Source: Saprospiraceae bacterium
GTDB taxonomy: Bacteria; Bacteroidota; Bacteroidia; Chitinophagales; Saprospiraceae
Length of the DNA stretch: 44,924 bases
Direction: 5' to 3'
NCBI GenBank assembly: GCA_020627825.1
Contig: JAHDGD010000015.1
Location: forward strand, 1 to 44,924
Of the stretch, positions 1 through 43,020 are shown one piece after another. The notes under the pieces are model-generated. The model searched no databases. It was not told the origin of the DNA and saw nothing but the letters and a program-made list of their open reading frames with translations. A program made the translations under genes and the position numbers. Position 1 is the first letter of the stretch, and each line of letters opens with the position of its first letter.

Positions 1-123
1 TTTACATGTGTTAGATATTTTTTAAAGATTGACAAATCAACTGGGATTCACGTTATATTAATACCTGTACTCATAGGTTTTGATTATGCTGGGATACTGT
101 TCACCTTTAAGAAATGGTGGTGA
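1..123 (+). CDS. Possible 3' end of an unidentified gene (partial)
   Basis: The first reading frame is open from the window edge to a TGA at 121-123, giving 40 residues that end in a hydrophobic stretch (HVILIPVLIGFDYAGILF) followed by FTFKKWW. This could be the tail of a membrane protein that begins outside the window. An open frame of this length can also arise by chance, and no family is recognisable, so the call is tentative. Confidence 0.25.
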   Translation, partial: FTCVRYFLKIDKSTGIHVILIPVLIGFDYAGILFTFKKWW

Positions 124-14039: not shown

Positions 14040-15418
14040 TATCGGATTATTTTTTCTGCTAATTCAATGGCTTTTTTCAAAGCACCCAATTTATTATGTA
14101 CCTCTTGTAATTCATTTTCAGGAATTGAAGAAGCTACAATACCTGCTCCTGCTTGATAGTATAGAGTATGATCTTTGCTTAAGAATGATCGAATAAATAT
14201 GGCATGATTTATATTTCCATTGAATCCTATGAAACCAATAGAGCCACCATAAAAATTTCTCGATGTCGGCTCATACGAATCTATCAATTCAAGGGCTCTA
14301 TATTTCGGAGCTCCTGATAACGTGCCTGCCGGAAAAGTGTCACCAAAAACTCGAACTGAATTGGTATGTTCTTTTAAGGTGCCTTGGACATGGGACACAA
14401 TGTGCATGACATGACTAAAAGATTGAATTTCTTTATACTTTACGACTTCTACATTTTTTGCATTTCTACTTAGATCGTTTCGAGCAAGATCAACGAGCAT
14501 TACATGTTCTGCATTTTCTTTTTCGTCTGCTAAAAGCTCTTTTTTACTTTGTTCATCTATAGTGGGATCTCCTGTTCGTTTCACAGTTCCTGCAATAGGG
14601 TCGATATGAGCTTTGCCTTCGGCAATACGAATTTGAGTCTCAGGACTTGAACCCATTAAGTGAAAGTCTTCATAATCAAAATAGAAAAGATAAGGTGAAG
14701 GGTTGATTGCTCTAAGTGCCCTATATACATTAAAGTCGTCCCCTACAAAACCTTGTTGAAATCTTCGAGAAGGTACTACTTGGAATACATCTCCTCTGTG
14801 ACAATGTTGTATGCACTTTTGTGCTATTTCTATAAAGTCTTCATCCTCCATGTTACTAATTTCTTCGCCTTGCTTTTCAAATGGGAAATACATACTTCCT
14901 GTTTTGAACGTTTGTTCCACTAGACTATGCAATTGACTGGACTGACCAACTTGGAGGTTCTCATAGAATTGAACAGTTTGGTGAAAATGATCAAATGAAA
15001 TTATAAATCGGTAAAAGATCAGATGAATATCAGCCACATCATGTTTCGGTTTCTCTTTAAATGTTATATCTTCAAAATAAGGAATAGAATCATAAGAGAT
15101 GTATCCATATAAACCACTGCTAGGAGATTCTGTATCTTCTAATTCGAAAATATTCATAAATTCTTGAATACCTTGATCTACAGTTTTGGATGTAAGCTGT
15201 ACATTTTTATGATCAACAATAGCATGTACTTTGCCGTTTTCAACTTTTAATTCTGCTATTGGAGAACAACCTATAAAGCTAAATTTCCCTTTCTGGATGT
15301 GGAAATCAGTACTTTCAAGTAAAGCGCACATTCTGAATTTATCTCTTAACTGAAGATAGGTTTGGACAGGTGTGATCTTATCCGCTAAGTATTCTTCTTT
15401 TACTGTTGTGATTTTCAT
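14039..15418 (-). CDS. trpE: Anthranilate synthase component I
   Basis: It aminates chorismate and eliminates pyruvate to give anthranilate, the first committed step. The 459-aa protein contains the feedback-site LLEST motif near residue 33, GDVFQVVPSRRF, PSPYLFYFDYEDFHLMGSSPE, DPIAGTVKRTGDP, HVMLVDLARNDLSR and GTLSGAPKYRALELIDSYEP, all chorismate-binding signatures. It is the first structural gene, 39 bp downstream of the attenuator hairpin. A GGGTTxAACCC palindrome lies 12 bases upstream of the ATG. Confidence 0.97.
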   Translation of the reverse strand: MKITTVKEEYLADKITPVQTYLQLRDKFRMCALLESTDFHIQKGKFSFIGCSPIAELKVENGKVHAIVDHKNVQLTSKTVDQGIQEFMNIFELEDTESPSSGLYGYISYDSIPYFEDITFKEKPKHDVADIHLIFYRFIISFDHFHQTVQFYENLQVGQSSQLHSLVEQTFKTGSMYFPFEKQGEEISNMEDEDFIEIAQKCIQHCHRGDVFQVVPSRRFQQGFVGDDFNVYRALRAINPSPYLFYFDYEDFHLMGSSPETQIRIAEGKAHIDPIAGTVKRTGDPTIDEQSKKELLADEKENAEHVMLVDLARNDLSRNAKNVEVVKYKEIQSFSHVMHIVSHVQGTLKEHTNSVRVFGDTFPAGTLSGAPKYRALELIDSYEPTSRNFYGGSIGFIGFNGNINHAIFIRSFLSKDHTLYYQAGAGIVASSIPENELQEVHNKLGALKKAIELAEKIIR

Positions 15419-15429
15419 TTTTCTAATTT

Positions 15430-15448
15430 TTTTGGGTTAAACCCAAAA
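15430..15448. repeat. Palindrome TTTTGGGTT-A-AACCCAAAA upstream of trpE
   Basis: Nine-base perfect arms around one central base, between the attenuator terminator and the trpE ATG. It resembles the GGGCTCGAGCCC palindrome family with the CTCGAG centre changed. It could fold in the trpE ribosome-binding region or be a protein-binding site. Confidence 0.6.
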
Positions 15449-15456
15449 TAAAATGC

Positions 15457-15490
15457 AAAAAAAAATCTTCCCGAGTGACCCGAGAAGATT
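15457..15490 (-). terminator. trp attenuator terminator
   Basis: On the minus strand AATCTTCTCGGG (15490-15479) pairs with CTCGGGAAGATT (15475-15464) around a 3-base TCA loop and runs into nine T residues. Two of the 12 pairs are G-U wobbles that exist only in the minus-strand RNA, so the element is built to terminate transcription entering trpE. Confidence 0.88.
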
Positions 15491-15544
15491 CGATATATCA
15501 TATAATACAATACTAAAATAGGGTCACAAAATGTACATTTTATG
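15475..15544 (-). promoter_or_regulatory. trp attenuator: competing hairpins
   Basis: Three mutually exclusive pairings are visible on the minus strand. Segment 2, GTGACCC (15527-15521), spans the leader-peptide stop TGA and is perfectly complementary to segment 3, GGGTCAC (15481-15475), which lies in the upper part of the terminator hairpin. Pairing of 2 with 3 would break the terminator. A separate hairpin, CATAAAAT/ATTTTGTG (15544-15525), takes up the first bases of segment 2. A ribosome stalled on the Trp codons would cover this hairpin and favour antitermination; one that reaches the stop would cover segment 2 and favour termination. Confidence 0.82.
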
Positions 15545-15580
15545 CCACCACCAATTAGTTGTATGTATTGTTTTATTCAT
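15524..15580 (-). CDS. trpL: trp operon leader peptide
   Basis: A short ORF starts with ATG at 15580 and ends with TGA at 15524. It encodes the 18-residue peptide MNKTIHTTNWWWHKMYIL with three consecutive UGG codons. Its stop lies inside the antiterminator segment GTGACCC and about 34 bases before the terminator stem, the geometry needed for ribosome-mediated attenuation. The peptide itself is probably not functional; its translation senses charged tRNA-Trp. It was found by reading the gap upstream of trpE and is below usual gene-calling length. Confidence 0.85.
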   Translation of the reverse strand: MNKTIHTTNWWWHKMYIL

Positions 15581-15721
15581 ATAAGCGTAAAGCTATAATT
15601 AATTTTACTTAATTTTTGAATCCAAAGCCTTAAAATTTATTTAAGAAGATGTTTTTTACAACTGTTTTTGTAGGTATTGTGTTACTTATGTGGTTTGAGA
15701 ATCAATAGAATATCATTGCAA

Positions 15722-41475: not shown

Positions 41476-43020
41476 ATGCAAAAGATAAGCTTTAGGTATC
41501 TAATCCTATTGATGGCGGGATTTTTCGTATATTCTTGTTCACAGCAAGATTTTAACGAAAAGGAAATGGAAACTCCTACACCTGATCGATACACATTTGA
41601 AGAAATTAAAGAAGAAGTTATTTCATCTTTAAAGAATGGAACAACATTCTCTTGGGAGAATCAAAATGATGCAATGATTTATAGCGCAACTATGCTATCT
41701 GACTCCTTTCTTTCGATAGGGTATACAATAGATCCTGATTTCGATATTATAAAGAATATACATACTATTGATATTACTTCACCTGAATGGGTGAAAGCTA
41801 GATTGGAAATTGAAAACTTGATTCTTTCTTCAGAAGAAAAAGGATACTCAAATACAATATCTATAAGAGACCTCCAACCTTATGGGCAAGTTGATGTTCT
41901 TCCTCAAATTATTGTAAAAGTTCAATTCAAAGAAACTATTGAATTATTGCGCAATCATCCAAATGTTCGTTTTACTGAGCCATTAGGATTTAATATATCG
42001 GATGTTGTACAAGTTGATCGAAGTGATTCAGGTTGTAGTGGAAACCCTAATTATGGCATAAATACAGCTGATTATACTACAATAGATCCTGGAATAAAAT
42101 TGCCTTGGAATTTCACGAATCATAATATTGATGATGCCTGGGACAATTCTAGTCAAGGAGACAATGTAAAAGTATGTATCATTGATACTGGCGCCAGTTT
42201 TAGCCAAGACAACTTAGGAAGTAATTTTAATTCTGGATATAGTTCTGGTCGTACTGTTGAAAAATATAGCACGAAATACTCTGGTTCATGGTGGTGGAAA
42301 ACATTGGATTCTCCTGATGATCCTTGTGGGCATGGTACATCAATGGCTGGTCACGCTTCTGCTCCTCGAAGTAATGATGGGAATTCAGTAGGTGTTGCGT
42401 ATCAATCTAACTTAATGTCTATAAGAGCTGTTGAAGATGTGATCATTTCTACTTCTAATGAACGTAATGGAGTTCGAGATGCACTTGTGTTAGCTGGAAA
42501 TAGTTCGGCTAAAGTTATAAGTATGTCTATAGGAACTCCTTTTTACAGTAGTACGGTTGCTGATGGCGTATTTTATGCATATAACAAGCAAAAATTAATG
42601 TTTGGTGCTGCAGGAACATCTTTATCGTGGACGAGTTGGTACCCTGTTATTTTCCCAGCAAATATGTCACAAGTTAGAGCTGTTACTGGAGTTAAAAATA
42701 CTTCAAATCTACAGAAATGTACAACTTGTCATGAAGGTCCTGAAGTTGATTTCGTAATTATAATGGAAAGAGCTTCAGATAGTGATCGTGTTTCTGTTTC
42801 ATTAGCGAGATATAGTGATCAACCTAAATATGTAGGAGGGTCGTCGTCTGCAACAGCAACAACAGCAGGAATTGCAACTATGGTATGGGCACAAAACCCA
42901 TCTGCCACAAGAGCCACCATTTTGGATGTTTTAAAGAATGCAACAAGTTTGTATCCTAGCCGTGATAGTGATTTAGGCTGGGGAACTATAGATGCACTAG
43001 AAGCTGTAAACGGAATTTAA
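41476..43020 (+). CDS. S8 (subtilisin-like) serine peptidase lipoprotein with CXXCH motif
   Basis: The 514-aa product has a lipoprotein signal peptide (MQKISFRYLILLMAGFFVYSC, Cys21). A propeptide-like region runs to about 175, followed by an S8 domain. The catalytic triad is Asp237 in CIIDTGAS, His286 in CGHGTSMAGHASA, and Ser457 in GGSSSATATTAG, aligning with the usual GTSMAxPxxAG. The oxyanion Asn of the AAGN motif is replaced by Thr381 (FGAAGTS). A KCTTCHEG segment at 414-421 carries a c-type heme motif between the oxyanion strand and the Ser motif. Reduced or altered activity is possible. It probably acts at the outer surface. It is alone, followed by a palindrome and a strong terminator. 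Confidence 0.88.
   Translation: MQKISFRYLILLMAGFFVYSCSQQDFNEKEMETPTPDRYTFEEIKEEVISSLKNGTTFSWENQNDAMIYSATMLSDSFLSIGYTIDPDFDIIKNIHTIDITSPEWVKARLEIENLILSSEEKGYSNTISIRDLQPYGQVDVLPQIIVKVQFKETIELLRNHPNVRFTEPLGFNISDVVQVDRSDSGCSGNPNYGINTADYTTIDPGIKLPWNFTNHNIDDAWDNSSQGDNVKVCIIDTGASFSQDNLGSNFNSGYSSGRTVEKYSTKYSGSWWWKTLDSPDDPCGHGTSMAGHASAPRSNDGNSVGVAYQSNLMSIRAVEDVIISTSNERNGVRDALVLAGNSSAKVISMSIGTPFYSSTVADGVFYAYNKQKLMFGAAGTSLSWTSWYPVIFPANMSQVRAVTGVKNTSNLQKCTTCHEGPEVDFVIIMERASDSDRVSVSLARYSDQPKYVGGSSSATATTAGIATMVWAQNPSATRATILDVLKNATSLYPSRDSDLGWGTIDALEAVNGI

Follow-up and report, generated by a model that had tools for sequence, protein, structure and literature searches.

Organization of the trp Operon and Its Leader

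The DNA analyzed here, hereafter the window, is a stretch of 44,924 nucleotides from a Saprospiraceae bacterium (contig JAHDGD010000015.1 of assembly GCA_020627825.1). Its minus strand carries a trp operon in the order trpEGDCFBA, the seven trp functions being named by their best family models. The first gene, trpE (15418-14039, minus strand), encodes anthranilate synthase component I. It is named by its best NCBIfam match, TIGR00564, at 446.1 bits, which lies under the cut-off of 517.7; the protein stays below the cut-off of every one of the 25 families shown (of 26). The remaining genes, trpG, trpD, trpC, trpF, trpB and trpA, occupy 14039-9103 on the same strand and were assigned by NCBIfam matches. 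Among them trpG, trpD, trpC, trpB and trpA each pass one curated NCBIfam cut-off, and trpF passes none among the families shown. The upstream neighbor is divergent, running on the plus strand from 15677 onward, so that a terminator in the trp leader ends no upstream gene.

Ahead of trpE lies a leader peptide ORF of 18 codons and a TGA stop (15580-15524, minus strand), encoding MNKTIHTTNWWWHKMYIL and recognized by reading of the sequence and by comparison with relatives. It holds three consecutive Trp codons, UGG UGG UGG (15553-15545, minus strand), a run that is common in the surveyed loci described below. The stop codon (15526-15524) lies within the segment GTGACCC (15527-15521, minus strand), which was delimited by the same two means and is taken as the antiterminator segment; it begins 17 nt past the last Trp codon. 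When the minus strand is read, the original prediction of an 18-codon ORF with three UGG codons and a stop inside GTGACCC is thus exact to the base. The string TGGTGGTGG has one copy only elsewhere in the window, at 42289 on the plus strand, in frame within a 514-residue ORF whose product by eye resembles a secreted subtilisin-type protease and which is no leader.

A promoter -7-like element, TAGCTTTA (TAnnTTTR), is found at 15595-15588 on the minus strand. It occupies the same place as a perfect TAnnTTTG element, TAGCTTTG, in the same-genus locus L002, and the window has A for the last G. TAnnTTTG, which we take to be the Bacteroidota -7 promoter element, occurs in 56 of 100 loci within a 70-nt stretch whose end lies 24 nt ahead of the Trp codons, compared with a mean of 7.42 (maximum 14) in 50 shuffled sets.

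RNA Structures of the Leader

Folding places an intrinsic terminator stem-loop of 13 pairs (-14.8 kcal/mol) at 15491-15463 on the minus strand, 44 nt from trpE. It is followed by a tract of nine U (15465-15457), read from the sequence, the first of which are also paired in the stem. Folding and a complement scan identify the antiterminator target GGGTCAC (15481-15475, minus strand) at the top of this hairpin, made up of 3 nt of the 5' arm, all 3 nt of the loop and 1 nt of the 3' arm. The complementarity of GTGACCC to GGGTCAC atop a terminator with nine U had been proposed earlier and proves exact, with the target at the terminator apex. When the stretch after the Trp codons was shuffled, none of 60 shuffles reached this match. 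In an unrestricted duplex test the pair is unremarkable, since 41 of 98 foreign segments pair with the window terminator equally well or better.

The proposed hairpin competing for the first bases of GTGACCC is likewise borne out. The inner protector hairpin (1:2), CATAAAAT-GTAC-ATTTTGTG (15544-15525, minus strand), appears in the MFE fold and is backed by the native-versus-foreign test described below. Its arms, at 15544-15537 and 15532-15525, are pairable at all eight positions with one G-U, and the ATTTTGTG arm has GTG in common with the antiterminator segment. Two further helices of the MFE fold enclose this hairpin on the minus strand, namely a middle helix of ACUAA (15559-15555) with UUAGU (15516-15512) and an outer helix of AAUACA (15569-15564) with UGUAUU (15509-15504). 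The 124-nt leader as a whole folds at -32.4 kcal/mol. Its 200 dinucleotide shuffles average -19.47 (sd 2.9), giving z -4.46, and not one of them folds as well.

Leaders and Terminators Upstream of trpE

The upstream regions of trpE were read in 110 loci. Thirty of these come from the family and order of the window and make up 30 of the 34 close TrpE matches in that group; the other loci are the best 80 of at least 592 by TrpE similarity and no random sample. A short ORF with at least two adjacent Trp codons (WW) was found upstream of trpE in 101 of the 110. In a test of 108 loci, limited to ATG starts and at least 150 nt of upstream sequence and using 20 rounds of dinucleotide shuffling, WW ORFs occurred in 100 loci against a shuffled mean of 1.45 (maximum 4), and ORFs with WWW in 87 against a shuffled mean of 0.05 (maximum 1). 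A terminator follows the leader in 99 of the 101 loci; the exceptions are L020, in which the hairpin has a weak U run, and L098, in which the assigned ORF is a false match inside a trpB-like gene that is itself preceded by a WWW ORF.

The nine loci without a WW ORF are of several kinds. L044 and L066 offer less than 50 nt of upstream sequence, the sequence of L108 breaks off inside a trpB-like gene, and L079 has no leader within the stretch examined. L056 has a WHW leader and then a hairpin. In L097 and L105, a WWW ORF stands ahead of a gene resembling trpB by eye, which is followed by trpE. Since the WWW ORF precedes the trpB-like gene in these two loci and in L098, the switch would stay at the front of the operon. 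The last two, L051 and L092, have leaders with one Trp codon (NNGWHF and NKNGWQG) and keep the terminator-like hairpin; these are possibly weaker or decaying switches.

Tandem Trp leaders, each followed by a terminator-like hairpin, were observed within about 370 nt upstream of trpE in L033, L037, L047 and L067, the first three of which are Draconibacterium or Prolixibacteraceae by title. The peptide of the first leader is a conserved INTIWLPWWGLL, which reads SIWLWWG in L067, and the second is a Trp-run leader (WSWRW in L067).

Comparison With Same-Genus Relatives

A trpE of the window type was found in two of the three other genus genomes examined (L002 and L003), and the third, G003, yielded distant TrpE-like matches only. 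In L002, whose TrpE is 78% identical, the leader MKRIKLHNRFCWWHKTYSLVTQ has WW, and the pairing is GTGACCC:GGGTCGC with one G-U. In L003, whose TrpE is 72% identical, the leader MNCISLHTNNTWWWHYRTPMDPITIV has WWW. Covarying changes were sought in these relatives, and the L003 pairing GATGGACC:GGTCCATC is indeed changed on both strands, while that of L002 is kept through its G-U. Neither relative has kept the terminator and lost the Trp codons or the pairing. The leader stop is less constant in position: L002 has it beginning 2 nt beyond the segment and L003 14 nt beyond, so that it overlaps the segment in one of three genus members, the window alone.

A fold of the three genus sequences pairs the columns of the outer helix. 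In their MAFFT alignment, five pairs are changed on both sides, three in the outer helix and two in the terminator; several pairs are broken in one sequence, and two of the three outer-helix pairs changed on both sides in some sequence are also broken in some sequence. Little was gained from this three-sequence covariation because the antiterminator columns of L003 are misaligned by one base.

Pairing of the Segment With the Terminator Apex

To compare loci, 12-nt windows were set at fixed, rising distances from the last Trp codon in 95 loci, and each was paired with the terminator apex of its own locus or with the apices of other loci. As the windows are fixed, the test cannot choose its own answer. 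The 95 loci are what remains of 99 after the near-duplicates L075 and L101 (Saprospiraceae by title, with leader peptides identical to those of L019 and L021 from the family of the window, a match that places the window in Bacteroidota) and two loci with a doubtful ORF pick (L012 and L067) are dropped; these four are still included in the counts 101/110 and 99/101 above and in the 99-locus complement scan below. The permutations in this and the following tests carry no model of kinship among the loci.

For the stretch that lies 15-27 nt beyond the Trp codons, pairing with the native apex averages -8.76 kcal/mol, compared with -5.41 for foreign apices and -6.45 for the best of 5000 permutations (n = 95). 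No native advantage was seen in the same loci for windows over the Trp codons or starting at least 24 nt after them, and this absence in neighboring windows makes shared base composition an unlikely cause. Among the parts of the terminator, the apex gives -9.30 native versus -5.96 permuted (n = 95) and the outer 5' arm a weaker signal (-4.33 versus -3.42, n = 95); for the outer 3' arm the signal is absent (-2.81 versus -3.21, n = 90).

Protector pairing was detected in the same way. Between +0..12 and +14..28 relative to the Trp codons, the native mean over the 95 loci is -5.64, and the minimum of 3000 permutations is -4.43. The stretch -21..-6 before the Trp codons also pairs natively beyond the permutation minimum, both with +28..42 (-3.72 against -3.35) and with +36..56 (-4.44 against -3.51). 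The stretch -33..-18, which holds most of the outermost helix of the window, does not beat all permutations, and the rows for the arm -45..-30 (values near 1050) are meaningless.

The exact-complement scan covered 99 loci. In 63 loci no more than 6 of 60 shuffles reached the apex match, in 49 no more than 3 did and in 14 none did; the limit of 6 is lenient, with about 10 of the 99 loci expected to pass by chance. In the other 36 loci, which include seven Chitinophagaceae and three Chryseobacterium by title, more than 6 shuffles reached the match, so the apex reading is not established for all loci. Within the 63 scoreable loci, the segment begins 16-20 nt past the last Trp codon in 50, most commonly at 17 (23 of 63). 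The match reaches further into the 3' arm in 48, further into the 5' arm in 13 and equally into both in 2, and the stop codon shares bases with the segment in 30. If the four doubtful or duplicate loci are left out, the counts 63, 48, 13 and 30 become 61, 46, 13 and 29.

The overlap of stop codon and antiterminator segment had been considered unusually direct. This view does not hold, as the overlap is absent from L002 and L003 and present in nearly half of the scoreable loci; it is thus ruled out as a special feature of the window locus and is a local detail.

By energy, all three genus members favor the 5' arm and loop by at least 2 kcal/mol. For 25 loci among L004-L030, 21 favor the loop and 3' arm and 3 the 5' side; for the 67 remaining loci, the corresponding numbers are 38 and 18. 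Statistical comparison across the phylum supports a predicted geometry in which the terminator apex is captured, with a shift of register in the genus of the window. A broader reading, toward which we lean but slightly, is that the trp attenuators of Bacteroidota belong to a single ancient class that has a geometry of its own, in which the spacing of the segment is near-constant and the apex is captured through the loop and mostly the first bases of the 3' arm. The genus of the window would then have shifted the register to the 5' arm and loop and kept the spacing. Within this one-class reading, capture of the apex would make antitermination a kinetic race at the hairpin tip.

Timing of Folding and Proposed Mechanism of Attenuation

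For folding, a ribosome was assumed to cover 12 nt from the A-site codon. In stepwise folding with the ribosome stalled on the middle Trp codon, no fold is better than the antiterminator (-13.4) while 11 to 5 nt of the stem are still missing. Once complete, the terminator is favored even though the ribosome is stalled (-17.5 kcal/mol), at a mean pair probability of 0.96; over the five ribosome positions examined, this value stays at 0.96-0.97. Purely thermodynamic antitermination is ruled out by the preference for the complete terminator despite the stalled ribosome, and antitermination must be kinetic, that is, a matter of timing. In a comparable folding snapshot of 95 loci, at least four segment-apex pairs were present in 67 and absent in 28.

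The leader very probably attenuates transcription of the trpEGDCFBA operon by a ribosome-mediated mechanism. It combines a cognate-codon ORF, a terminator before the first gene and an antiterminator that excludes this terminator and has comparative support, though 36 of 99 loci fail the shuffle limit. Comparison of sequences establishes the anatomy, the conservation and the locus-specific complementarity of the attenuator. Ribosome-mediated trp attenuation, the reading first proposed, is also the best supported one, given the occurrence of the leader, the locus-specific pairing and the pairings in the genus. What the window holds is probably an RNA switch ahead of the trp genes that is tripped by the ribosome at tryptophan scarcity, and very probably a real attenuator that is ordinary in kind.

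The following sequence of events, including transcript start, stalling, masking and Trp dependence, is one that we infer for the window. RNA polymerase would start just upstream of the leader ORF, with a ribosome trailing. When charged tRNA-Trp is scarce, the ribosome would stall on the UGG run, and its downstream edge would open the hairpin of CATAAAAT and ATTTTGTG. The freed GTGACCC could then pair with the emerging GGGTCAC before the 3' arm of the terminator exists, and transcription would proceed into trpE. When Trp is plentiful, the ribosome would reach the stop inside GTGACCC and mask the segment, so that the terminator would form and transcription end at the U tract. If the leader is not translated, the protector hairpins would keep GTG to themselves, and the terminator would be expected to form too.

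Other explanations were weighed against this attenuator. The hairpin could be a constitutive terminator or transcript-end hairpin beside a chance Trp-rich ORF, with no regulation involved, a view that agrees with the preference for the complete terminator at all five ribosome positions tried. It is very improbable all the same, given that the upstream gene is divergent and leaves no transcript needing to end at the leader terminator, that WWW ORFs are so widespread (87 of 108 loci) and that the segment-apex match is specific to the own terminator. Even smaller is the chance that the leader ORF, or some ligand, acts in another way. T-box, tryptophan-binding RNA or other ligand-sensing leaders control trp genes in other phyla, and such a leader might control the terminator here, the ORF being incidental. 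No Rfam family, T-box included, was found at gathering in the window, and the 19 matches listed up to E 10 for 15380-15680 in a permissive scan contain no T-box, the best of them being the trp leader-peptide family RF01692; this reading is accordingly given scarcely any weight. As little is given to a boost of trpE translation by ribosome re-initiation after the leader ORF. Re-initiation has been proposed for short leader genes at a spacing of about 10-14 nt, and for Bacteroidetes a peak of leader genes at 11-14 nt from the structural gene has been reported (PMC4833913). Here the trpE start lies 105 nt past the leader stop with a strong terminator between, and re-initiation needs neither runs of Trp codons nor complementarity to the apex.

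Relation to Known trp Attenuators

A leader-peptide trp attenuator is a kind already described for Bacteroidota, and the family is named by RF01692 (Bacteroid-trp). The original prediction had pointed to comparative predictions of attenuators in some Bacteroidota; it was right that the kind is known, and the precedent is this named family. Table 1 of the source article classes Bacteroid-trp, from Bacteroidetes, as an RNA (y) that is cis-regulatory (y) and no switch (n) (Weinberg et al., 2010; PMC2864571). In a passage of a 2019 paper, Bacteroid-trp is placed ahead of the Flavobacterium psychrophilum trp operon and likened to the E. coli leader (PMC6414381). A passage of a 2010 survey states that leader-peptide systems had, to its authors' knowledge, been shown only in Proteobacteria and Actinobacteria, to which the survey adds Firmicutes (PMC2965389). 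An earlier survey would most likely be found in Lopatovskaya et al. (2010), which is cited in PMC4833913.

On the window leader, RF01692 aligns over its full length (1-131 of 131) at 15597-15482, upstream of the trp genes, with the top bit score and lowest E-value among the matches listed for 15380-15680. The score of 32.2 bits (E 0.036-0.049) stays under the gathering score of 49, and a search of the own genome with RF01692 found nothing at E <= 0.001. As the alignment of the model stops inside the 5' arm of the terminator, the model does not include the antiterminator-terminator pairing. The window attenuator shares with the family its phylum, its location before trp genes and the full-length alignment, and differs in its score and in that pairing. 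It is very probably homologous to RF01692, with the place and architecture of the family, yet it is no formal member by score.

When 20 test loci taken from the 110 were scanned, RF01692 was found at gathering in two, both of them Flavobacterium; L108, among the 18 misses, has no leader. In genome scans, which used stricter filters and in which the trp operon is not necessarily present in every genome, the family was found at gathering in none of 60 genomes of the order (2 at E <= 0.01) and in 8 of 118 genomes of the phylum (10 at E <= 0.01). Judged by anatomy, in contrast, almost all of the trpE upstream regions read here contain a leader. What is added over RF01692 is this reach across loci and the geometry of apex capture, which differs testably from the E. 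coli design.

Like the window leader, E. coli trpL (NC_000913) has Trp codons in a short ORF and mutually exclusive antiterminator and terminator structures before trpE. The segment begins about 14 nt after the Trp codons in E. coli and 17 nt after them in the window. In a calculation like that for the Bacteroidota loci, with the apex taken as the loop and 5 nt on each side, the E. coli segment prefers the 5' arm and the preceding bases (-11.8) over the apex (at best -6.5), whereas the target in the window is the apex. The window thus differs from the E. coli type, in which the 5' arm and the preceding bases are targeted instead of the loop. The stop codon of E. coli trpL lies 9 nt after the Trp codons and ahead of the segment, whereas in 91 of the 101 loci the leader stop follows the Trp codons by at least 18 nt.

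Other Amino-Acid Operons

An improved model would allow annotation across Bacteroidota and a search for attenuated his and other operons. The ilvD family (PF00920) has no match in the genome of the window and is present in 14 of 14 control genomes; its absence from a genome that is 96% complete means that synthesis of branched-chain amino acids may be missing. At the homoserine-dehydrogenase locus, the open frame begins 66 nt in, which leaves almost no upstream sequence to examine. Leader-peptide attenuators are also a known kind in his operons. Contig C20 of the same genome (L116) carries on its minus strand, at about 761-824 in the reversed locus, the His leader MNLNLHIHHHHLLSQRRVRC. A terminator-like hairpin comes after it, the distance to hisG being about 80 nt. 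Like the trp leader, the His leader has a run of cognate codons and then a terminator-like hairpin before the gene, with a different amino acid and gene, and the genome may thus have a second attenuator of this kind.
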